This document shows positions 2,141 to 20,430 of a DNA stretch of 20,799 nucleotides, in pieces. Source of the DNA: Saccoglossus kowalevskii (taxonomy: Eukaryota > Hemichordata > Enteropneusta > Harrimaniidae); contig NW_003120927.1 in assembly GCF_000003605.2 (NCBI RefSeq), positions 63,169 through 83,967 on the forward strand, written 5' to 3'. The notes beneath the pieces are model-generated. The model did not search any database and was not told the DNA's origin. It saw only the letters and a program-made list of their open reading frames with translations. The translations under genes were made by a program, and so were the position numbers. The number at the start of each line of letters is the position of its first letter. The first letter of the stretch is position 1.

Positions 2141-2285
2141 ATGTTAAATATTATCCAATCCAATTCTTTTGTCAATATATAACAATAACAACGTGGGAAT
2201 CTCAGGTATATATTAAATATCATTCTACAATTAGACAAAAGCACACACAAGTGTAAACTCAATTTGGAAAAACCTTTTGCATATA

Positions 2286-2363
2286 CCGTATTACCCCGGG
2301 TAGGCGCCCAGTGGCCTGAACATACAAAATCGGGAAAAATTGGGGGTGGGCGCTTACCCGAGG
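2286..2363. repeat. Left terminal repeat and subterminal hairpin of the foldback element
   Basis: The arm CCCCGGGTAGGCGCCCA (2294-2310) is complementary to TGGGCGCTTACCCGAGG (2347-2363) with few mismatches, leaving a 36-base loop. A near-identical GGGGGTGGGCGCTT block recurs as a direct repeat near the right end (3481-3494). The ends are therefore themselves palindromic, not simply inverted copies of each other. Confidence 0.8.
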
Positions 2364-2866
2364 ACCACCCCAAAAAAGATTTTAAAAAGTTGTTTTTGTG
2401 ATTGTATGTGATTTTGCTTTTGTACACTTTGTACACATACTTATTTCTTGATTTATGCGAGGTTTTAATAAATGTGAGCACTCGGTCAAGAACTGTGGGA
2501 ACACTAAGACACAGGGTCGAATTTCAAGAATAAAACTTGTTTTATGTCAGTGAATGAAGTGGTATTACTCACTGAAATTGGCTACAAAGTGTGGTAAATA
2601 TTGTAATCAATGCACGGTTACTTTTTTCGTAACCGTGATCAGTGCAAGTCGAAACGGCTGCGAAAAACTACCGCTTGTAATCCAAGATGGTGATGACCTC
2701 ATTAGCATAATTTTGTACGTATTGATACATCGCATCGTAATTACTGAAGAATAGCAGACAGAGTTATAAAACAAATAAACCTTTTACTGATGAGATAACA
2801 TAAACATATCCAAATGGCGATACATAAAAAACAGACTGTAAATAAACTCAGGTCGACCTCATTAAC

Positions 2867-3208
2867 ATGATTTATTCACGCACCCACACACATGACGAAA
2901 TTACAAAAATAACGATGATGCAACAAGTTCCCATTGTCGGCATGCCTCATTATGGTTATCGTAATGGACTTGAGGTCGGCAAAATGTTTTTTCTTCAACG
3001 ACAGAAAAATAATCAACATGACCGTAATGCCATAGCTGTGATGAAGGATGGAAAGAAAGTAGCAAGTTTACGACGTGATGTCTCAAAATTGCTAGCTCCT
3101 GTTATGGATTCACAGTCAGCGAAATGCTACGTTTTGAAACCAAAGCTAAGTGCTTCAAACCACTCACCAAGGTATGGATTATTGCAATATTGGATTCATC
3201 GTGAATGA
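2867..3208 (+). CDS. HIRAN-domain-like ORF inside the foldback element
   Basis: This 113-codon reading frame lies entirely within the TA-flanked element. Residues about 23-81 fit the HIRAN pattern: a leading IVGMPHYGY strand, a hydrophobic LEVGKMFFLQR strand, the diagnostic N-x-H-D-R-N-A-I-A-V segment (about residues 48-57), a K-V-A-S-L strand, and an R-x-x-S-K-L-L-A-P-V-M-D helix. In helicase-like transcription factor and Rad5 relatives, HIRAN binds single-stranded 3' DNA ends. Here no helicase motif or other domain follows; the frame stops about 30 residues after the domain. An in-frame TAA lies eight codons before the ATG, and a CAG/GT acceptor-like site lies between them, so the ATG may be internal to a spliced gene. 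Function in the element is unknown. It could be the remnant of a larger transposon protein. The HIRAN assignment is from motif recognition only. Confidence 0.65.
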   Translation: MIYSRTHTHDEITKITMMQQVPIVGMPHYGYRNGLEVGKMFFLQRQKNNQHDRNAIAVMKDGKKVASLRRDVSKLLAPVMDSQSAKCYVLKPKLSASNHSPRYGLLQYWIHRE

Positions 3209-3428
3209 AGAGAAAGCAGAACGTGTGCCACATGCTGCGTGGTTCATCTTACGTCGTTAAGTTCCAATGAGTTTTTACATAAAAACACAAACAAAACGGC
3301 CCTTTTCAGGGCCACCACACACTCCAAAAAGAGAACTACTGTAACAAACGCACTATTTAAATAAATCAAACGCATTTGTTTTTGACAAATAAAACTTTAT
3401 TGTTGACCCCGTTCTTGGCTAAGAATCA

Positions 3429-3528
3429 CCCTGGGCATTTAACCGAGGATGTCCCCAACATGCAACTTTTTTGAAAACAGGGGGGTGGGCGCTTGCCCAG
3501 GGAGGGGCACGTGCCCGGGGTAATACAA
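3429..3528. repeat. Right terminal repeat and subterminal hairpin of the foldback element
   Basis: CCCTGGGCA at 3429-3437 pairs exactly with TGCCCAGGG at 3494-3502. GGGCACGTGCCC at 3505-3516 is a perfect palindrome containing an E-box-like CACGTG core. The outermost GGGGTAATAC mirrors the left end. The segment just inside (AACCGAGGATGTCCCC) resembles the left-end ACCCGAGGACCACCCC in direct orientation. Confidence 0.75.
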
Positions 3529-4411
3529 TAATATAACCTTTTAACATATAATCAATTTGGTTATCCATGTATGCTTTTAAAATGCAATGTGTAATAACGA
3601 TACCAGATTTATGAGTCTCAGAGGCATTTTAGAAACAATTAACCAATCAATTTTGATATCACAGACTGACATATGTATACAGATAGAGGGAGTACTTAGT
3701 TGGGTCAACTTTTCCAATCTCTGTAAAATAGCGCTGCTCTTAAAATTATTTACATGGTCATCTATAGGGAGGTTTTGATTGTAGGATGAAAACTTATAGT
3801 GGCTAATTTAACTCAAACTCATGTTTGCCATTTGCAAACAGATGTACATTTGATACAGTTACAACCAAAGTTATACATGTATGCACATGTACGGGTAATC
3901 TTGTTACACTGTTCAGGAGAATCTTTATCCCAAAGTATAGCTTTCCGAGAGTTTTTGCTCCGAGAATAGCGAGTATGAATGAAGAACAGAAGAAATATAA
4001 CAGTGGAATGTGTAGATCTGACAACAGTATGTACAGTAAATGCTTAAAGGTTACTCAAGGTTTTACAAACGTGGTAGGTTTGAAATGGACATGAGAAAAT
4101 GTTATATAGTCCATGTTAGCATAGGGAAAAATATTGAAACTGTTGTATCTTTACAAAAATTTTTTATTTTTTTATTACCTTAAGTCTAATTGAATGGTTG
4201 TTGTTTTACTTTTTCCCCATGATCTATTCGCAAAATATAAAAAATTCCAAAGATTTTCATTAATTGTATTGAGTAAACCATTTCAAAAATATGCACCCTT
4301 GAGTCACCTTTCACTAAAAGAATCTGCATATTTTTTAAAAAAATTCCATCAAGGTGAGAAAAATTATGACGTGTAAAAAGACAACTGTTATGAGAATATC
4401 AGCCATCTTAC

Positions 4412-6964: not shown

Positions 6965-7835
6965 ATTTGTAAAAAATTATGATTTAGTGCTTTTACACGA
7001 GAATTGAACATTGAGCAGTCATATTGAATCAAATTACAAAAATAATGTTCATGTTGATGTATCTATTGGTATACTGTCTTTGTACAAAATGTTCATTACA
7101 TTCATGGTAAAGTAGGTATGGGTATCATGAAAAACAAAATGGCCACCAGTCAGCCATATAAGTTTGAATCACAGAAAGAATATGACATGCAACTATAACC
7201 TGATATGTATGATCAACATATCAACTTTGATTTAAATTGGCCTTGTCATCACTGAGAAACAGCTCCGGACATGTAAAAAATGACGATTTAACGCTTTTAC
7301 AGGAAATTTGGGCGTCGGTCAGCCATATTGAATCGAATCACAAAAATAAAGTTGGTACAAATGTATCCCTTGGTATACTGTCTTTGTACAAAATTTAAAG
7401 AGAAACGTGCATTGTATTCAAGAGAAAGTAGCATGGGTACCATGAAAAACAAGATGGCCGCCAGTCAGCCATTATAGTTTGAATCACGAAAAAAAAATGA
7501 TGTGCACCTACAACCTAATATGTATGATCATCATACCAACTTTGATCCAAATCGGCCCAATCATCTCCGAGAAACTGCTGCGGACATGTTTAGGTATCAG
7601 AAAGAGCAAATTTTACAACCAAAATGGCCCCCAGTCAGCCATTTTTGCTCCGATCATGAAGTAAGTTGACGCGCATATGTAAAACATTATGTATTGTCTT
7701 CATGTAAAGTTTGAATCAATTCCGTCAATTGGTGTCCAAGATATATTTCCGTACGCACGGATGGACGAACGGACGAAACAAACCCAAATTAATAGTCCTT
7801 GTTTTCGGACTTCGTCCGAGCGGGGACTAAAAATA
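6965..7835. repeat. Dispersed internally tandem repeat, region 2, two units of about 305-315 bp
   Basis: About 6965-7275 and 7276-7590 are diverged tandem copies. Each has, in order: GATTTA-(G/C)GCTTTTACA, a CAGTCATATTGAATC or related block, a GGTATACTGTCTTTGTACAA block, GGGTA-CATGAAAAACAA, GATGGCC-CCAGTCAGCC, AACCT-ATATGTATGATCA and CGGACATGT. A partial third unit follows with another CCAGTCAGCC (7631-7640), then a GGACGAACGGACGAA tail near 7763-7777 and the hairpin at 7793-7829. Such tails of repeated GGAC words followed by a hairpin suggest the true 3' end of an element, about 65 bp from a coding exon. Confidence 0.65.
7793..7829. repeat. Nested hairpin at the end of the dispersed repeat
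   Basis: The outer arms TAGTCC (7793-7798) and GGACTA (7824-7829) are exact complements. The inner arms CGGAC and GTCCG flank a three-base TTC loop (7806-7818). The structure lies right after the GGAC-rich tail of the dispersed repeat and probably marks its terminus. It could fold in the pre-mRNA of the host gene, since the exon donor lies about 70 bp away. Confidence 0.7.
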
Positions 7836-7899
7836 TCACAACCCATGTTCGAAGCTCAGACTCATAAACATGAACAAATATGAATGAATGATTACTTAC

Positions 7900-8113
7900 C
7901 CATTGATTGAGTGGTGTAAATTTACCAGTCAAAGATTTCAATGCTTCCTGTGCTACAATACCCCCAACAGCTGCAGTCAGTGGAGCAAAACAGCCTTGAG
8001 CGGTAAAGGCCAGGTGTGTCAACAGCTCGTTATCTATACTGACTACTTTGTTAATTAATGTACTGTTTAATGATTTGGCTAGCTTTAACAGTTCTTCTGC
8101 ATCACCTTTATGC
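7900..8113 (-). CDS. UBA6: UBA6-like E1 enzyme, exon for the end of the four-helix bundle and inactive adenylation domain
   Basis: This 214 bp exon gives the strongest family signal. After a split arginine codon it encodes 71 residues starting HKGDAEELLKLAKSLN, consistent with the end of the four-helix bundle. It continues through HLAFTAQG and FAPLTAAVGGIVAQEALKS to LTGKFTPLNQW. The A-x-G-x-x-x-P-x-x-A-x-x-G-G-x-x-x-Q-E-x-x-K segment and the G-K-F-x-P-x-x-Q-W ending are E1 hallmarks of the second half of the inactive adenylation domain. The TAQG, AAVGG and TGKF-P forms are nearer UBA6 than UBA1, where the corresponding stretch reads differently. The acceptor is TTTTTTCAG at 8120-8114 upwards and the donor is TGG|GTAAGT. 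The phases (enter with one base, leave at 0) match both neighbours. No stop or frameshift is present. Confidence 0.95.
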
Positions 8114-8374
8114 CTGAAAAAATAATTTGAAAAGAGTACATAATGATAATGTTTTGGGAAGTTGCGTAACTGCACCATTTGTGATTCTCGCCTAACTAAT
8201 GGTATTGATTTTAAATTCCTGGGCAGATCTTATCTTTTCAATTTATAGTCGCGTGAACTTTGAACCTGCATGACACTTGTTGTATATGTGAAATCACAAG
8301 CATATTCCATCCTTGTGAAAAGTTGTTTTTAAAATAGTGTAGATGACATTGATACATTTCTATTAAAGTGATCC

Positions 8375-8498: not shown

Positions 8499-9617
8499 TA
8501 GTTCTCACAGAAAATATTGCCTAACTTTTAGTTCTCACAGAAAATATTGCCAAACTTTTAGTTCTCACAGAAAATATTGCCAAACTTTTAGTTCTCACAG
8601 AAAATATTGCCAAACTTTTAGTTCTCACAGAAAATATTGCCAAACTTTTAGTTCTCACAGAAAATATTGCCAAACTTTTAGTTCTCACAGAAAATCTTGC
8701 CAAACTTTTAGTTCTCACAGAAAATATTGGCAAACTTTTAGTTCTCACAGAAAATATTGCCAAACTTTTAGTTCTCACAGAAAATATTGCCTAACTTTTA
8801 GTTCTCACAGAAAATATTGGCAAACTTTTAGTTCTCACAGAAAATATTGCCTAACTTTTAGTTCTCACAGAAAATATTGCTTAACTTTTAGTTCTCACAG
8901 AAAATATTGCCTAACTTTTAGTTCTCACAGAAAATATTGCCTAACTTTTAGTTCTCACAGAAAATATTGCCTAACTTTTAGTTCTCACAGAAAATCTTGC
9001 CTAACTTTTAGTTCTCACAGAAAATATTGCCTAACTTTTAGTTCTCACAGAAAATATTGCCAAACTTTTAGTTCTCACAGAAAATATTGCCAAACTTTTA
9101 GTTCTCACAGAAAATATTGCCAAACTTTTAGTTCTCACAGAAAATATTGCCTAACTTTTAGTTCTCACAGAAAATATTGCCTAACTTTTAGTTCTCACAG
9201 AAAATATTGCCTAACTTTTAGTTCTCACAGAAAATGTTGCCTAACTTTTAGTTCTCACAGAAAATATTGCCTAACTTTTAGTTCTCACAGAAAATATTGC
9301 CTAACTTTTAGTTCTCACAGAAAATATTGCCAAACTTTTAGTTCTCACAGAAAATATTGCCAAACTTTTAGTTCTCACAGAAAATATTGCCAAACTTTTA
9401 GTTCTCACAGAAAATATTGGCAAACTTTTAGTTCTCACAGAAAATATTGCCAAACTTTTAGTTCTCACAGAAAATATTGCCAAACTTTTAGTTCTCACAG
9501 AAAATATTGCCAAACTTAGTTCGCACAGAAAATATTGGCAAACTTTTAGTTCTCACAGAAAATATTGTCAAACTTTTAGTTCTTACAGAAAATCTTGCCT
9601 AACTTTTAGTTCTCACT
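8499..9617. repeat. 30-bp minisatellite, about 37 units
   Basis: The plus-strand unit is CAAACTTTTAGTTCTCACAG followed by AAAATATTGC. The period is strictly 30 from 8521 to 9510, then one 28-bp unit at 9511-9538 lacks two thymines, and further units run to about 9600. Units differ chiefly at one base, CAAAC versus CTAAC, and the two forms come in blocks: CAAAC at 8551-8790, CTAAC mostly 8851-9060, CAAAC 9061-9150, CTAAC 9151-9330, CAAAC 9331-9538. On the minus strand the CTAAC form puts a TAG in the otherwise open frame, so the frames of 85 and 70 codons with a FSVRTKSLAI decapeptide are by-products of the repeat. There are no spacers, so it is not a CRISPR array. Confidence 0.97.
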
Positions 9618-9776
9618 ACTCCTATCATCTTGCCTAATTTCTAACAGTACTTCATGTGTGAAGGGCTATGCTACTCAAAGTGTTTTCTTGAGAACTAAAC
9701 ATGATTCCAATAACACTTTGAGAACCCATTACAAATTAGTTGCTGATGCAGGATATTTGCTCTCCGAAAACCTTAC

Positions 9777-9916
9777 CTAACTCTTGGTAATGTTTTATGT
9801 TTTTCCATATACTTGTGTAACGCATACAATCCAAGGTGGATGCTTGCTGGAGATTCCATTTTACTCAAATCAGATATCAGGATTGAAGGATTTGTTAACT
9901 GTGCCTCAAGTGATTC
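9777..9916 (-). CDS. UBA6: UBA6-like E1 enzyme, exon for the four-helix bundle
   Basis: This 140 bp exon is read in phase 0 and encodes 46 residues plus two bases: ESLEAQLTNP, SILISDLSKM, ESPASIHLGL, YALHKYMEKH, KTLPRV. The S-L-x-x-Q-L start, the I-S/V-D-F/L-S strand and the I-H-x-x-x-x-A-L-x-x-Y/F helix with a following K-x-L-P-R are the usual succession in the E1 four-helix bundle, the helical insertion that packs on the inactive adenylation domain. The acceptor is ATCTTTTAG and the donor is GTTAG|GTAAGG, which splits an arginine codon with the next exon. The donor region is strikingly similar to the repeat unit of the minisatellite just downstream. No lesion is seen. Confidence 0.93.
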
Positions 9917-11514: not shown

Positions 11515-12250
11515 CTAAAATAAGAAAGAAATATTGATGCTCAATAAAATACATTGTACATTCAGTAAAATTTAACCAACATAAATTGTTTTCAGCACAC
11601 AGATGCACAACATACAAGTGTTTGCAGGATATTTGAAAATTCTAAGAAATGCTCAGAATTGACCATGTGAATTTTAAACAGATGGCAGTTATGGGCCCAT
11701 CACAAGTTTTTTGTTTTTGATGTATTGCAAAGCATCTACATCTACAATGTTAGCTTGGACTCTCTACAACACCCAAGCAATGATGTTCAGTTTATTTCAC
11801 AAAATTTATTTCAAGCGTCACATATTTTTAAAACAAAGTTGAACTATTAAAGTGAAATCCAACACATCTTCATTGGGCAGTTTATCTGTTGCATGCTGGG
11901 AATTCTTCCAAATCATGTGATCTCCAGATGCTTGATGCTAGTTACCATGACAGCATTCCAACCAACCAATCAGATTTACAGTCAATTGCTGATTGTGATT
12001 GCATAATTGACCATCACGACTAGAATTGTGCAACATTATCACCGTAGATCATGAAGCTACATGTACATGTAGAGCTAATCAGAGCAATATTTTTTATCAG
12101 ACATGCTCAGTCTTGATTGCAGGTTAGCAAAAAACGAAAACAAAGAGGTCAAAGTGTGTACATGTCTCACAGATATAGAAGGTGCATAGATTCTTGTGTA
12201 GTGCAAGGATGGTGAACAAATTAGGTCCAATTATCCCATTAATATCATAC
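11515..12250 (-). other. Intron of the UBA6-like gene
   Basis: This 736 bp intron has donor GTATGA and acceptor TTTTAG. It is AT-rich, with a few short palindromes such as TACATGTACATGTA near 12058-12071. No gene, terminal inverted repeat or tandem array is seen in it. Confidence 0.75.
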
Positions 12251-12374
12251 CTTTCACTTGATGTGTTGTGTTATTTAGAGATGTCATTCCTTCAACCTCT
12301 TTGAATGTGACATAGGCTCCAGACTCCAAACCATGCATTTGGTTTTCAAGACATGTTACAATGCCAGGATTAGC
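12251..12374 (-). CDS. UBA6: UBA6-like E1 enzyme, exon for the first catalytic-cysteine half-domain
   Basis: This 124 bp exon begins in phase 0 and encodes 41 residues plus one base: ANPGIVTCLE, NQMHGLESGA, YVTFKEVEGM, TSLNNTTHQV, K. The N-P-G-I/V-V-T-C-L motif, H-G/K-L/F-E-S/T-G, the V-T/S-F-x-E-V/I-x-G-M strand and the L-N glycine/asparagine turn are the core of the first catalytic-cysteine half-domain, which together with the second half-domain, encoded outside this window, cradles the thioester site. The acceptor is TTGCCACAG and the donor AAAG|GTATGA. The ANPGIVTCLEN start is shared with UBA6, whereas UBA1 usually has an aspartate and valine here. Confidence 0.95.
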
Positions 12375-14021
12375 CTGTGGCAAAAAAGACAAAAAAAAAT
12401 TTAATTTAAAAACAGTCGCTGACAAAGGTATCCAGAAAAAAAGGGGGGTGAATATCTTCAACCACATTATAGCGTTATTGTCATGCTCAACTCAAAAATG
12501 GGTCCTTGCAATTGCAAAGAAAAATATAAAAAAATAATTGCAACATAATGTTCTCAAAGTCTAATACTTTTAACAATGGTTAAATCACACTTTAAAATTT
12601 TAAATATTAGCAGTATGGGTTAACCTGTATTCAACTTGCTTTCGAATGGCTGGCTGTCAAGCAACCATTGTAAATCTTAAACTCTCTATACAAAGTTTGG
12701 TTCAAATTTGCTGAGATACATGTCAAAGAAATGTTTGATAATACTTCAAAGAATAGATTTTGCAAATGTCTACCAGTTTATTCATGCACTTACGGGGGAA
12801 AAAAGTCAGAACAAAAAAGGTGCATCTCATATAGTAGAATCCCTGTGTCAACTTGAAGCTTGAAAAAAACATATTACTATTTCCCAAGCAATTAGACACA
12901 ATATATTCAAAATAATTAGCTAGTTTACTGTAATAGCATTATTTACTGTAAGTTGAAAGAAAATTTTCGTACAATTGTAGAACAGTTTTGCACGTTCCTC
13001 AAATTTTGTAGTTTCTAACAGAAAAATCAGTAAAACCAGACAATCTACTAGTATTGAGTACAGTGCAAAAAGTTATACAGTGGTAGATATATATGAGATG
13101 AGCAACTGCTTGTGCTTTTAGAGGATGAATATTCATTGTTGAGTTTACCAATGTTTATAGTAAACCTGGTTTGCCTCTGAAAAACACCTGCCATAATCAA
13201 AGATTTTATTACTATGCCTATCTTCCCCATAAAATTGTTTTACCTCCACTGTTTAAAACACCACAGTAGTCCCAACCAAGTGTTGTTTAATATATATCCA
13301 AAGTTAGAATTTTGATTTCAAATCAAATATTAAGCCGCATTGATAAATGAATACTTTGGATATGTAAGTTATTTAACCCCTGGGTTCATGTGACATGCCT
13401 AATGTGTATGCTAATACATTTTACAGACAATATTGAAGTGAAGTACATTGCATAGTTATCTATAAAAACAGAAGTATATTACCTTGGAAAAAAAGTTGGT
13501 GGTCAGTGTGCACCATCAACCATTTAATTTAGTGGTCCAAAGCATAAAACCAGTGGTCATTTGATGCATGACCAATGCTAATTTAGAACCCCGAGTCCCA
13601 TGCAACATATACAATGTATGTCAAATATCTTATTTGTTTACACAAAATTCAGACACGCAAGAGTGGTAAACAATACCGGTAGATGGATAGGTTCAGTCAT
13701 CAAGAATTCTGTCCAACAATATTACATTTCTAATCATTTGCCATATTTTGGGTGTAAACAAGTAAATGTGACTGAAAACAAATGATTGACCAATATTGGG
13801 ACATTTTAAAAAAATACTAGGAAATTGCCGATGTTGGGTGAGCATCTGTATTTTATATGTGTTAATATAACATTTTTTTGCAATAGTTTTGAAATATTAA
13901 CCTGGTTCGAAAAGCTAAAATCTTCTACATAATATTAACAGTTTACCTATTGACTGACAGGGCAGGAACTTGTATCAGTATTTAACTTGTCAGTTAATCG
14001 ACGAGACTAGTACTCAAACTA

Positions 14022-15030: not shown

Positions 15031-15382
15031 GCTGTTAGTATACTCGTATAGAAAATCAATCGAGTTTTGAAGTCCTTCTGGTGTTGTTGATAGAAGTGCA
15101 ATGTCATCTGCATATAGTAGACATTTTACTAATTTATCATATAGTTCTTGTGTTGTTTTATCACTTTTAATTCCTGTGATAAGATGATTTATAATTGGTC
15201 ATCGAAATTTTACTTAAGTCTATTTACTAATGGTTTATTTTGATTTTTTCAGTAAGCATGTCATTTAATTTCATGTTAAATTTCATATTTTTATACATAA
15301 TCTTTATTATACTGTATACTATTCTGTAAATGTTATTATTCATTAGTTTATAATGTGAAGATGTAGAATAAAATAAGACATT
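15031..15382 (-). pseudogene. Broken LINE (non-LTR) reverse transcriptase fragment
   Basis: Two minus-strand reading segments together cover the middle of a reverse transcriptase. The upstream one (15382-15230) gives a stretch ending NIYRIVYSIIKIMYKNMKF, then NMKLNDMLTEKIKINH, resembling the palm region before the QG-x-x-LSP motif; it ends in TAG. The downstream one (15198-15031) gives IINHLITGIKSDK, KLVKCLLYADDIALLS, TTPEGLQNSIDFLYEY and ends in TAA. YADD is the catalytic aspartate motif, and the trailing LLS-x-x-x-x-G-L-Q is typical of Jockey/CR1-like LINEs. The 31 bases between the segments are too short for the expected QG-x-x-LSP stretch, so a deletion plus frameshift is likely. No endonuclease part or 3' tail was identified. 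It is a dead fragment. Confidence 0.85.
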
Positions 15383-17110: not shown

Positions 17111-18740
17111 GTGTATTCCCATCAGGGATTGATGGCTAGGGGTGCGTCTCATCAAGGTTGATGACTAGGGGTGTGTCCCTTCAGGAATTGATGGCTAGGG
17201 ATGTGTTCATAAGGAATTGATGGCTAGAGGTGTGTCCCATCAGGGATTGATGTCTAGAGATGTGTCACATCAGGGTTGATGGCTAGTGGTGTGTCCCATC
17301 AGGAATCAATGGCTAGGAATGTGTCACATCAGGGATTGATGGCTAGAGGTGTGTCCCATCAGGGATTGATGGCAAGGGATGTGTCACATCAGAGGTTGAT
17401 GGCTAGAGGAGTGTTCCATCATGGTTGATGGCTAGGGATGTGTCACATCAGGGATTGATGGCTAGAGGAGTGTTCCATCAGGGTTGATGACTAGAGGAGT
17501 GCTCCATCAAAAGTTGATGGATAGGGGTGAGTCTCATCAGGGATTGATGGCTAGGGATGTGTCACATCAGGGATTGATGGCTAGGGATGTGTCACATCAG
17601 GGATTGATGGCTAGGGATGTGTCACATCAGAGATTGATGACACAGGATGTGTTCCATCAGAGGTTGATGGCTAGAGAAGTGTTCCATCAGGGTTGATGGA
17701 TAGGGGTGCGTCTCATCAGGGATTGATGGCAAGGGATGTGTTCCATCAGGGTTGATGGATAGGGGTGCGTCTCATCAGGGATTGATGGCAAGGGAAGTGT
17801 CCCATCAGAGGTTGATGGCTAGAGGAGTGTTCCATCAGGGATGTATGGATAGGGGTGTGTCACATCAAGGATTGATGGCAAGGGATGTGTTACATCAGGG
17901 ATTGATGGCAAGGGGTGTGTCACATCAGAGGTTGATGGCTAGAAGAGTGTGCCATCAGGGATTGATGGCTAGAGGAGTGTTCAATCATGGTTGATGGCTA
18001 GGGGGGTGTGTTCCATCAGGGTTAATGGATAGGGGTGTGTCCCATCAGGGATTGATGGCTACGAATGTGTCACATCAAGGATTGATGGCTAGGGATGTGT
18101 CACATCTGGAACTGATGGCAAGGGATGTGTCCCATCAGAGGTTGATGGCAAGGGATGTGTCCCATCAGAGGTTGTAGGCGAGAGGAGTGTCCTATCAGAG
18201 ATTGATGGCTTGGGATGTGTCCCATCAGAGGTTGATGGCTAGGGGTGTGTCCCATCAGAGGTTGATGGCTAGGGGTGTGTCCCATCAGGGATTGATGGCT
18301 AGGGATGTGTCCCATCGGGGATTGATGGTTAGGGTTGTGTCCCATCAGAGGTTCATGGCTAGAGGAGTGTCCCATCAGGATTTGATGGCTAGTGATGTGT
18401 CACATCAGGGATTCATGGCTAGGAATGTGTTTCATCAGGGATTGATGGCAAGGAATGTGTCCCATCACAGGTTGATGTATAAGGGTGCGTCTCATCAGGG
18501 ATTGATGACTAGGGATGTGTCACATCAGGGATTGAAGGCTTGGATGTGTCCCAAAAGCAGTTGGAGGTTCAGGGAGTTGATGGATAGGGGTTGTCCTATC
18601 TGGGGATAATGGTTGGGTTATGACCTATCAGGGTTTGCTGGTTAGGATGATGGAAGGGGCCTGTCCCATCCAGGGGTTAATGGTAGGGGCAAATTAGGGG
18701 GTCGATGGCTAGTGGTGTGTCCCATCAGGAATTGTTGGTA
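17111..18740. repeat. Second minisatellite, unit about 30 bp, roughly 54 units
   Basis: The plus-strand unit is GGGATTGATGGCTAGGGATG followed by TGTCACATCA, with frequent variants (GGTTGATGG, GGATAGGGGTG, TGTTCCATCA, TGTCCCATCA) and units of about 27-32 bp. It is more diverged than the 8499-9617 array and decays from about 18540 on. Because most units are 30 bp and lack stops, open frames appear on both strands: decapeptides such as MARDVSHQGL on plus and MGHTPSHQPL on minus. Each unit has TGATG and CATCA as short inverted arms. There is no flanking gene structure for these frames and they interrupt whenever unit length shifts, so they are not called as genes. Confidence 0.95.
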
Positions 18741-18960: not shown

Positions 18961-18971
18961 TATTCATTTAC

Positions 18972-19094
18972 CTTTGTTATATTCGCCACAAAAACCTCTA
19001 CGGGTTCTTCTCCATTTTGATCCACCACTTCAAAGTGATCGCCGAAGTCACAGAACACAGAACAAAATACACCATACACATCAGCTGATATAAA
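18972..19094 (-). CDS. UBA6: UBA6-like E1 enzyme, exon from inactive adenylation domain into first cysteine half-domain
   Basis: This 123 bp exon, the most 5' in the window, has both ends in phase 0 and encodes 41 residues: FISADVYGVF, CSVFCDFGDH, FEVVDQNGEE, PVEVFVANIT, K. The S-A-D-V/T-x-G-V/L/I-x-x-x-x-F-C-D-F-G-D/E stretch closes a strand-helix unit of the inactive adenylation domain. The D-x-N/T-G-E-E/Q-P segment opens the first catalytic-cysteine half-domain. The acceptor is GTTCTCTTTTCAG and the donor AAG|GTAAAT. Reading straight into ANPGIV of the next exon reproduces the family without gap. The FISADVYG and FEV-D forms favour UBA6. UBA6 in vertebrates charges ubiquitin and FAT10 to E2 enzymes, notably USE1; whether this invertebrate enzyme has a second modifier cannot be told from here. 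Confidence 0.95.
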
Positions 19095-20430
19095 CTGAAA
19101 AGAGAACAAAAACAAAAACATAGTGAAACTAATGTAACCTTACCAAGATAAGGTATTTTTAAGTGGGAAAAAAATACTGTAAAGTACTGTATTTTCATTT
19201 GAAATTTATATTCGCAAGCAGGATAATCAGTGAAACATTTACATTTAAAATCTAGTGAAAAAAAATATCATACGCAACAGCCAAAATGAATGTAGCTGCC
19301 AGTATTTGAGGAGCTACTTAATACCTGATATAAATTACAAGCAAGCTAATAAAAAAAACACAAATGACAGAAACAAATTAGGTGTTGAATTTGAAAATCA
19401 TTCAAGTACTAGTTACAAATGTGAGCTTTGTTTAGCATATTGTATCCTAATTTTGGTCAAGAAGTATCCATTTATTTGTTTATCTGTCTGCTTGGTTTAT
19501 TAATTGACAGTTCATTTGTTCTTCATTTACAGGTCTAAAAAAATGCCAAATTATTTATTATGTTTATTCATTTCTGCCAGTTAACCAAAACTTTAATAAG
19601 ACAATATGGATATTTTTCAGATATTTTAAATAATTTTGTTTGATATTACACTTTGTTAAATAATATATGATTTATAGTAAAAAACAAATTTTGTTTTGGC
19701 AACAAATAGACGCATACCAGGGATTTCTCTAGAAAAAAACTGCAATTCAGCAGCGCCACCAAGAATTCTCCCTACCAGGGTGTGGAGTTTTTGTTAATTC
19801 TAAGTTAAAATTAAGCATTCTTTGGCTTCCTTAGGGCCAAAATTACTATCAGATAGGTCACAGTTGAAGACTGTGGCCACATGTGATCCCTGGTCAATCA
19901 GAATTTTATGGTTGCCAGAGGATCTGCTCCCCATGATAAGAGGCGCATGGCCATGGCATGAGAACGTTGCACCCCTGTTCCGTTGTTTAAAAAAAATTCC
20001 TGCATACACACAATTGGGTTCACTGATTTGAATACTGCTATGTTAGTTGCCAATATAAATGGTATTTATATTTACTCGTAATTTCTCTATATACATCTTG
20101 TGTTAAATGATCTACAGCCAGTGTTCGAAATTAGCGTCAGTCCGTCGGCCTCACGCCGACAGTGGGTGTAAAGGGCCTAGAGCTGTGAAAAACCATCAGT
20201 CCTTGCGACCGACCATAAATTTATATTTTAAAAAAATGTTCCATTATTTAGTATGATTGTAAGACCAAATATATAATAAATATCTATAGTAACTCCAGAA
20301 TTGTTTCAAAATTGCGTTTTCTTGCACGTTTGATCAACAAATGGCATCACTCATCGACCTGGGCATACGAGTCATAATTCAAGCTCGCCGAATGATCGCG
20401 AAATGCACCGAACGTGGGAACTGTAACAAA

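Follow-up and report, generated by a model that had tools for sequence, protein, structure and literature searches.

The window, by which the whole analysed stretch of 20,799 nt of the Saccoglossus kowalevskii genome (contig NW_003120927.1) is meant, contains a DNA transposon with TA target duplication at positions 2286-3528. The element carries short terminal inverted repeats (TIRs), subterminal repeats, an open reading frame (ORF) for a HIRAN domain and a histone-type 3' end (Table 1). Exons of a ubiquitin-activating enzyme E1 gene (UBA1-like) lie on the minus strand between 7792 and 19139: the E1_FCCH (12234-12491) and E1_4HB (9776-9916) domains scored above the Pfam cut-offs, the end of the ThiF domain (7792-8229) reached 18.1 bits, below its cut-off of 28.1, and 18963-19139 is E1-like by eye, with no Pfam match. 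The transposon is located downstream of the last E1 exon seen and is perhaps inserted in an intron of the E1 gene. Two coding-like minisatellites (8521-9598 and 17484-18609, with the repeat peptides AIFSVRTKSL and HQGLMARDVS) and a weak reverse transcriptase remnant (15031-15198, minus strand, RVT_1 18.7 bits, cut-off 29.6) were also present in the window.

Table 1. Features of the transposon in the window
Feature	Position	Strand	Basis
TA target site duplication, left	2284..2285	.	sequence; TA in 24/24 copies with aligned 5' end (by eye)
Left terminal inverted repeat	2286..2309	+	repeat analysis, copy alignment, family TIR comparison
Subterminal repeat with GGGGGTGGGCGCTTACCCGAGGA	2334..2364	+	repeat family D1
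HIRAN ORF, 113 aa in the window copy	2867..3208	+	Pfam PF08797, E 3.2e-12
HIRAN domain proper, residues 18-87	2918..3127	+	Pfam
Stop codon of the ancestral HIRAN frame (..SSYVVKFQ*)	3268..3270	+	sequence, copy comparison
Histone 3' UTR stem-loop (RF00032)	3293..3338	+	Rfam 39.8 bits, gathering 34, E 2.1e-8
Histone downstream element AAAAAGAGAACTACTGTAACAA	3326..3347	+	complementary to candidate U7 snRNA 5' end
Subterminal repeat	3419..3449	+	repeat family D1, 61% to reference
Subterminal repeat	3473..3503	+	repeat family D1, 81%
Right terminal inverted repeat	3505..3528	+	final two bases AA in the window, GG in most aligned copies
TA target site duplication, right	3529..3530	.	copy alignment

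The boundaries of the element agreed to the nucleotide with those given in a preliminary description of this DNA, and the TA flanks reported there were found on both sides, in the arrangement TA-CCGTATTACCCCGGGTAGGCGCCC ... GGGCACGTGCCCGGGGTAATACAA-TA. The 22-nt arms of the window copy (2288-2309 and 3505-3526) are 86% complementary, and the TIR of the family represented by this copy, designated family A, is a perfect 24-mer (100% over 24 nt when opposite ends were compared) that starts with CCGTATTACCCCGGG. The target site was read by eye in 25 copies, with L004 omitted at the 5' end: TA preceded the element in all 24 family A copies with the 5' end aligned and followed it in 23 of the 24 copies readable at the 3' end, L025 having CA and L013 running into N. 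TA duplication is a trait of the IS630-Tc1-mariner (ITm) group according to excerpts of PMC10045372, and the presence of TA and the TIR in many copies places the window element among the DNA transposons of this kind. The subterminal repeat at 2334-2364 is probably a transposase-binding repeat. Foldback transposons have long, internally repeated TIRs with stable folding, and the element had been labelled as one of them, with heavily hairpinned termini. The subterminal repeats are there, but the hairpins do not exceed chance, the folding energy having a z score of -1.11 at the left end (25 of 200 shuffles as good) and 0.00 at the right end (87 of 200). With TIRs of only about 24 bp and ordinary folding at the ends, a foldback element was ruled out and the label is a misnomer.

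A search of the genome (572 Mb, 4830 contigs) with the window element gave at least 55 matches at at least 40 places, scores having been computed for 40 of 584 candidates. The 24 aligned copies diverge by 2.0-4.1% from the family A consensus, and the highest value (4.1%) is that of the window copy. Six of the 24 (L022, L023, L025, L026, L027 and L028) share one nested insertion in the HIRAN ORF, which has inverted ends and is clearest in L022, where it starts with CACAGTCAGCTGGCATC and is flanked by a 9-bp duplication, GCTCCCGTT. The amplification of the family thus continued after the ORF was broken. The extra 350-516 bp in these six copies were also considered as a sign of a longer element, and this was rejected because they correspond to the nested insertion. 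Among ten incomplete copies, the break lies at most 60 nt from N in six and coincides with a contig end in one, while neither is the case in three (L031, L032 and L042). No autonomous copy, with HIRAN and a transposase between the same ends, was found among the copies examined, and family A showed no significant transposase remnant. The window element is decayed and non-autonomous.

The presence of HIRAN in the ORF, proposed earlier from the letters alone, was confirmed by the PF08797 profile (46.6 bits against a cut-off of 24.7), and the best relative in PDB was the HIRAN domain of HLTF (E 3.8e-5). The ancestral frame extended as far as position 3270 or so. Close to the C-terminus, the window copy and the A majority consensus are frame-shifted by an 8-nt difference; the 8 nt, which restore ..QYCNIGFIVNEEKAERVRHMLRGSSYVVKFQ, are still present in seven of the 24 copies. 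In excerpts of PMC11366124 the HIRAN domain of HLTF is described as binding 3' ends; R71 is reported there to hold the DNA end, as are Y72 and Y93 in excerpts of PMC4666394. The corresponding positions are P, H and H in the window HIRAN, according to an alignment in which the residue numbers were placed by us, so that 3'-end binding of the HLTF kind need not be expected of the element protein. In contrast to the HLTF and Rad5 proteins, which it resembles in having a HIRAN domain by sequence, the element encodes no helicase or RING domain, and host HLTF has a gene of its own (L048), with HIRAN exons that are, by eye, clearly unlike the element HIRAN. A recent capture from host HLTF was ruled out on this ground. 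The earlier suggestion that a host repair domain had been captured may still apply to another host gene. Phage HIRAN relatives were found at E 0.01 to 0.6 only, and 26 pattern stretches in the viral contig set yielded no relatives.

The HIRAN profile matched 84 places in the genome. By coordinates, 18 belong to family A and 33 to a second family, B (26 assigned by DNA search and seven by our own alignments with rough coordinates), six have a listed B-type TIR at most 2.5 kb away, one is HLTF, one is L065 and 25 are unplaced. Family B has the TIR CCGTATTTATCCGGGTAAGAGCCC and TA, is older than A, has ends related to those of A and carries the same HIRAN ORF, with the ends and the ORF in the same order and orientation. 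That a mobile element encloses the HIRAN ORF within ends of its own is therefore borne out in two diverged families, and HIRAN does recur between the same type of ends. A HIRAN match (E 0.01) overlaps 26 of 40 B DNA matches (40 of 672 candidates scored) and 15 of 35 A DNA matches, a count that omits five of 40 A places and all secondary pieces, none of which overlaps a listed HIRAN match. B-type TIRs were found at 292 places (100 listed; none in the reversed-pattern control), and a HIRAN match lay within 2.5 kb at 24 of the 100 listed. Of nine places with perfect B-type TIRs, six (G000:C1602, C502, C887, C1617, C3101 and C4224) have no HIRAN or listed B match nearby and a seventh, C2972, is a B match with no HIRAN match. 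Such places could be MITEs or autonomous copies. Of the findings by which the preliminary description would have been refuted, the lack of a meaningful HIRAN match did not apply; ends with no detectable HIRAN do exist, and one HIRAN frame, L065, has no recognised TIR. The 15 B loci that were read were picked from the HIRAN list and are uninformative on the frequency of B ends lacking HIRAN. A frame of 1931 codons at the HIRAN match of L045 was dismissed as a run of N.

A and B are alignable at both ends of the element and over the ORF with the signals behind it. Of positions 93-672 of A, no more than the initial few bases could be aligned with any B locus. The majority of A-B alignments cover approximately 673-1102, stop shortly behind the downstream element and start again at the 3' end; the alignment reaches 1119 in L060 and runs right through at 65% in L059. 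This pattern indicates that the unit best kept is the ORF with the stem-loop and the downstream element. An imperfect palindrome (60-66%, about 275 nt) was seen just 3' of the downstream element in two B copies (L049 926-1190 and L046 1723-1987). In L065 (C1492:904806-905012) a frame of 137 codons is free of stops, and no TIR was recognised over the 2.8 kb that were read; L065 represents a third HIRAN lineage, strongly diverged, and may be an old copy, a domesticated gene or a source gene. Its dN is 0.56 against A and 0.58 against B1, and being about equally diverged from both it is not a recent source of either.

The comparison of dN/dS across copies, envisaged in the preliminary description, gave a neutral result within family A and a sign of selection between the families. 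Within A the ORF diverges by 2.62% and the other sequence by 2.64%, with changes at codon positions 1, 2 and 3 of 2.1, 3.2 and 2.5%. The distinct changes comprise 35 synonymous, 89 non-synonymous and 7 stop (27, 68 and 5%, against a neutral expectation of 23, 71 and 6%; ratio about 0.8). The ORF thus shows no clear selection within A and is now a passenger. Between the consensus of A and that of B1, 117 aligned HIRAN codons differ at 24, 13 and 65 sites at positions 1, 2 and 3, giving a dN of 0.18, a dS of about 3.6 (saturated) and a ratio of about 0.05; in this comparison pieces in different frames were stitched and stop codons skipped. Other A-B pairs gave ratios of 0.05-0.11 or an unresolvable dS, and within-B pairs 0.3-1.0. 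The low A-B ratio means that the protein was under selection in the ancestors. Transposon genes usually show this pattern, selected in active lineages and neutral in dead copies. As the frame of the B1 consensus is already broken, the B1 copies also moved in trans.

A histone-type 3' end, a feature missing from the preliminary description, was found behind the ORF by the Rfam model RF00032. The stem-loop proper, GGCCCT-TTTC-AGGGCC, occupies 3298-3313 and its stem starts 27 nt past the ancestral HIRAN stop. Histone3 (RF00032) was the only Rfam match at gathering in the window and seven loci; cmscan placed it above gathering in three of the eight sources (the window, L002 and L003, all of family A) and found none at gathering in L049, L046, L065, L054 and L060. 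A permissive scan of 13 sources detected it below the gathering score of 34 in five of nine B loci and in L070 (30.3 bits in the best B copy and 28.3 in L070), with no match in L045, L050, L054 and L058. The value for L066, 22.1 bits, is likewise below gathering. A motif search missed the stem-loop in five of 15 B loci; the region is unaligned in L051, L052 and L061 and aligned but altered in L045 and L050. In L065 the stem is worn, although stem-loop-like, and the downstream element is unrecognisable. Divergence of the stem-loop within A is 5.5%, above both the ORF and the other sequence. Family A also has an AATAAA beyond its downstream element, which would permit ordinary polyadenylation. 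The arrangement resembles that of replication-dependent histone genes (RF00032, U7 snRNA RF00066, SLBP) in the stem-loop soon after the stop and in the purine-rich downstream element pairing with a candidate U7, and differs in that the gene of the element is not a histone. According to excerpts of PMC6303110, among the protein-coding messages of animals none but those of histones are known to carry this stem-loop at their ends.

The genome contains three weak U7 matches. One of them, the candidate L068 (24.8 bits, below the gathering score of 34), has a U-rich 5' part, an Sm-like site AATTTCTCCAG and a 13-bp hairpin, and is regarded as the probable host U7 snRNA. L067 and L069 were rejected as U7, at best 31 of 500 shuffles being as good. 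The 5' end of L068 is predicted to pair with the downstream element of the window at -22.3 kcal/mol (z -7.8) and with that of the A consensus at -24.5 kcal/mol (z -7.7), with none of 1000 dinucleotide shuffles as good in either case. The values are -22.6 kcal/mol for L070 (z -5.0, 1 of 1000 as good, 17 base pairs in a row) and -17.5 kcal/mol for B1 (z -4.1, 3 of 1000). Among 4148 overlapping stretches from both strands of the whole window, the best four cover the downstream element. None of 2561 stretches from the flanks of A loci reached -22 kcal/mol (best -21.5), while 14 reached -17.5 kcal/mol, so the B1 pairing alone is unconvincing. Energies ranged from -24.6 to -13.1 kcal/mol across 27 A loci, and pairing was weak in L046 and L066 (-14.2 and -15.3 kcal/mol, matched or bettered by 39 and 42, respectively, of 500 mononucleotide shuffles). 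Provided that L068 is U7, the downstream elements of the window, family A and L070 would pair with it better than expected by chance.

The pogo-type transposase domain DDE_1 was matched 62 times in the genome. One such gene, L066, adjoins a B copy; it is broken, ends in ..DLLLDGDDEDD-FEGF.. and is followed by a stem-loop (22.1 bits, E 0.012), and only imperfect inverted repeats were found as its TIR. The 3' sides of three further DDE_1 loci (L070, L071 and L072) were read. L070/L073 has an open 484-aa ORF from the first Met (502 codons from stop to stop) with DDE_1 (4e-28), HTH_Tnp_Tc5 (8.5e-9) and DD35D. Behind this ORF, 42 nt past the stop, lies the stem-loop (28.3 bits, E 3.3e-4), accompanied by the downstream element, and the 3' UTR is 88% identical to positions 1048-1106 of family A over 59 nt. 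The same 3' end is thus present on a pogo-like ORF. No stem-loop was found in the approximately 1.1 kb read at each of L071 and L072, the latter ending in 123 N. No 5' end was identified for the L070 element, and its candidate 3' end, ..ATTACGG followed by TA, has only the last few bases in common with family A. On the opposite strand of B copies a stretch ..GILFDDDSDADLDFEGF.. resembles the acidic end of the transposase (27 aa, 41%, E 5.7, not significant). Excerpts of PMC7386202 define the pogo superfamily by HTH_Tnp_Tc5 plus DDE_1 with DD29-59D/E, and DD35D with HTH_Tnp_Tc5 points to the Passer or Fot types; the L070/L073 gene has this combination. The window element has no DDE_1 or HTH_Tnp_Tc5 transposase of its own, and its affiliation with pogo is suggested by TA, the short TIR, the 3' UTR that it shares with L070 and L066 and the weak C-terminal remnant in B.

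These data are best explained, with a probability of about 0.6, by the window element being a decayed non-autonomous pogo-like transposon of the IS630-Tc1-mariner group, from a lineage with its own HIRAN gene and histone 3' signals. In the proposed mechanism an autonomous pogo-like relative, of the L070 lineage, would supply the transposase, cut at TA and move the A and B copies in trans, and window-type copies would be mobilised with their HIRAN ORF as a passenger. Transposase and HIRAN messages would be cut by the histone 3'-end machinery (SLBP on the stem-loop, U7 by pairing), poly(A) signals possibly serving alongside, and the HIRAN protein would aid transposition and bind DNA, either at replication forks or on the element itself. 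The histone-type ends hint at a timing of the transposon genes to DNA replication, as they would put the synthesis of both proteins mainly in S phase. The full proposal, that the lineage adopted the 3'-end system of replication-dependent histone genes so that transposase and a fork-binding HIRAN accessory are made only during replication, is tentative and is given slightly less than even chances. If true, U7 and SLBP would couple the expression of a mobile element to S phase, the coordination of transposons with replication would become directly testable, and the occurrence in a transposon of HIRAN, known from replication-fork repair, would be explained.

The principal alternative is transduplication, in which two related non-autonomous families each took the same host HIRAN gene with a histone-type 3' end, the selection seen between A and B being that of the host gene. 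The non-autonomous state of family A with its neutral ORF would fit, as would L065, with its stop-free frame, worn stem-loop-like sequence and lack of recognised TIRs, and the low proportion of listed B-type TIR places with HIRAN nearby (24 of 100). A host gene would not, however, explain why the HIRAN 3' UTR is like that of a pogo transposase gene (88%, 59 nt). The identical order and orientation of ends and ORF in A and B also argue against two captures, and the dN values of L065 (0.56 and 0.58) exclude it as a recent source, so this explanation is considered unlikely.

Less probable again, and rather doubtful, is that the stem-loop and downstream element were taken once from a histone gene and never acted as RNA signals in the transposon. 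The stem-loop of A decays at least as fast as the remainder and AATAAA is present downstream, both in its favour, but the two signals were kept in A, in the B2 copies L046 and L049 and in the transposase gene despite saturated third positions and mostly unalignable neighbours. They also lie close behind the stop codon, at 27 nt in A and at 42 nt in L070, and in both of these the pairing with the U7 candidate has persisted. The role assigned to HIRAN in the preliminary description, gripping the hairpinned or nicked ends of the element itself, has very little probability left. It drew on the presence of the domain in the element and on the binding of 3' ends by the HIRAN of HLTF (excerpts of PMC11366124). 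Against it, the hairpins at the ends fold no more stably than shuffled sequence, P, H and H stand in place of the key HLTF residues, and copies with a broken ORF spread, six of them with the nested insertion in the ORF.

Compared with the Passer, Fot and Tigger types in excerpts of PMC7386202, the element shares TA duplication and a TIR of at most 40 bp, and its likely partner L070 shares HTH_Tnp_Tc5 and DDE_1 with DD35D, whereas the histone-type stem-loop and downstream element after the transposase stop and the separate HIRAN gene are differences. Pogo elements are described there as having one or two ORFs encoding transposases, and the word accessory is absent from the main text of that source. 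In a subset of PMC (listings, the openings of abstracts and the leading entries of longer lists) neither HIRAN nor the histone stem-loop was ever joined with eukaryotic transposons. MITEs and non-autonomous elements of Tc1-mariner type have a short TIR and TA duplication, lack transposase and are mobilised in trans; the relatives of the window element differ from them in a length of 1.0-1.8 kb and a formerly selected ORF. A tandem array of approximately 160-bp units upstream of the L070 transposase was seen to recur in inverted orientation in the B copy at L066 (about 82%; L074 and L066).
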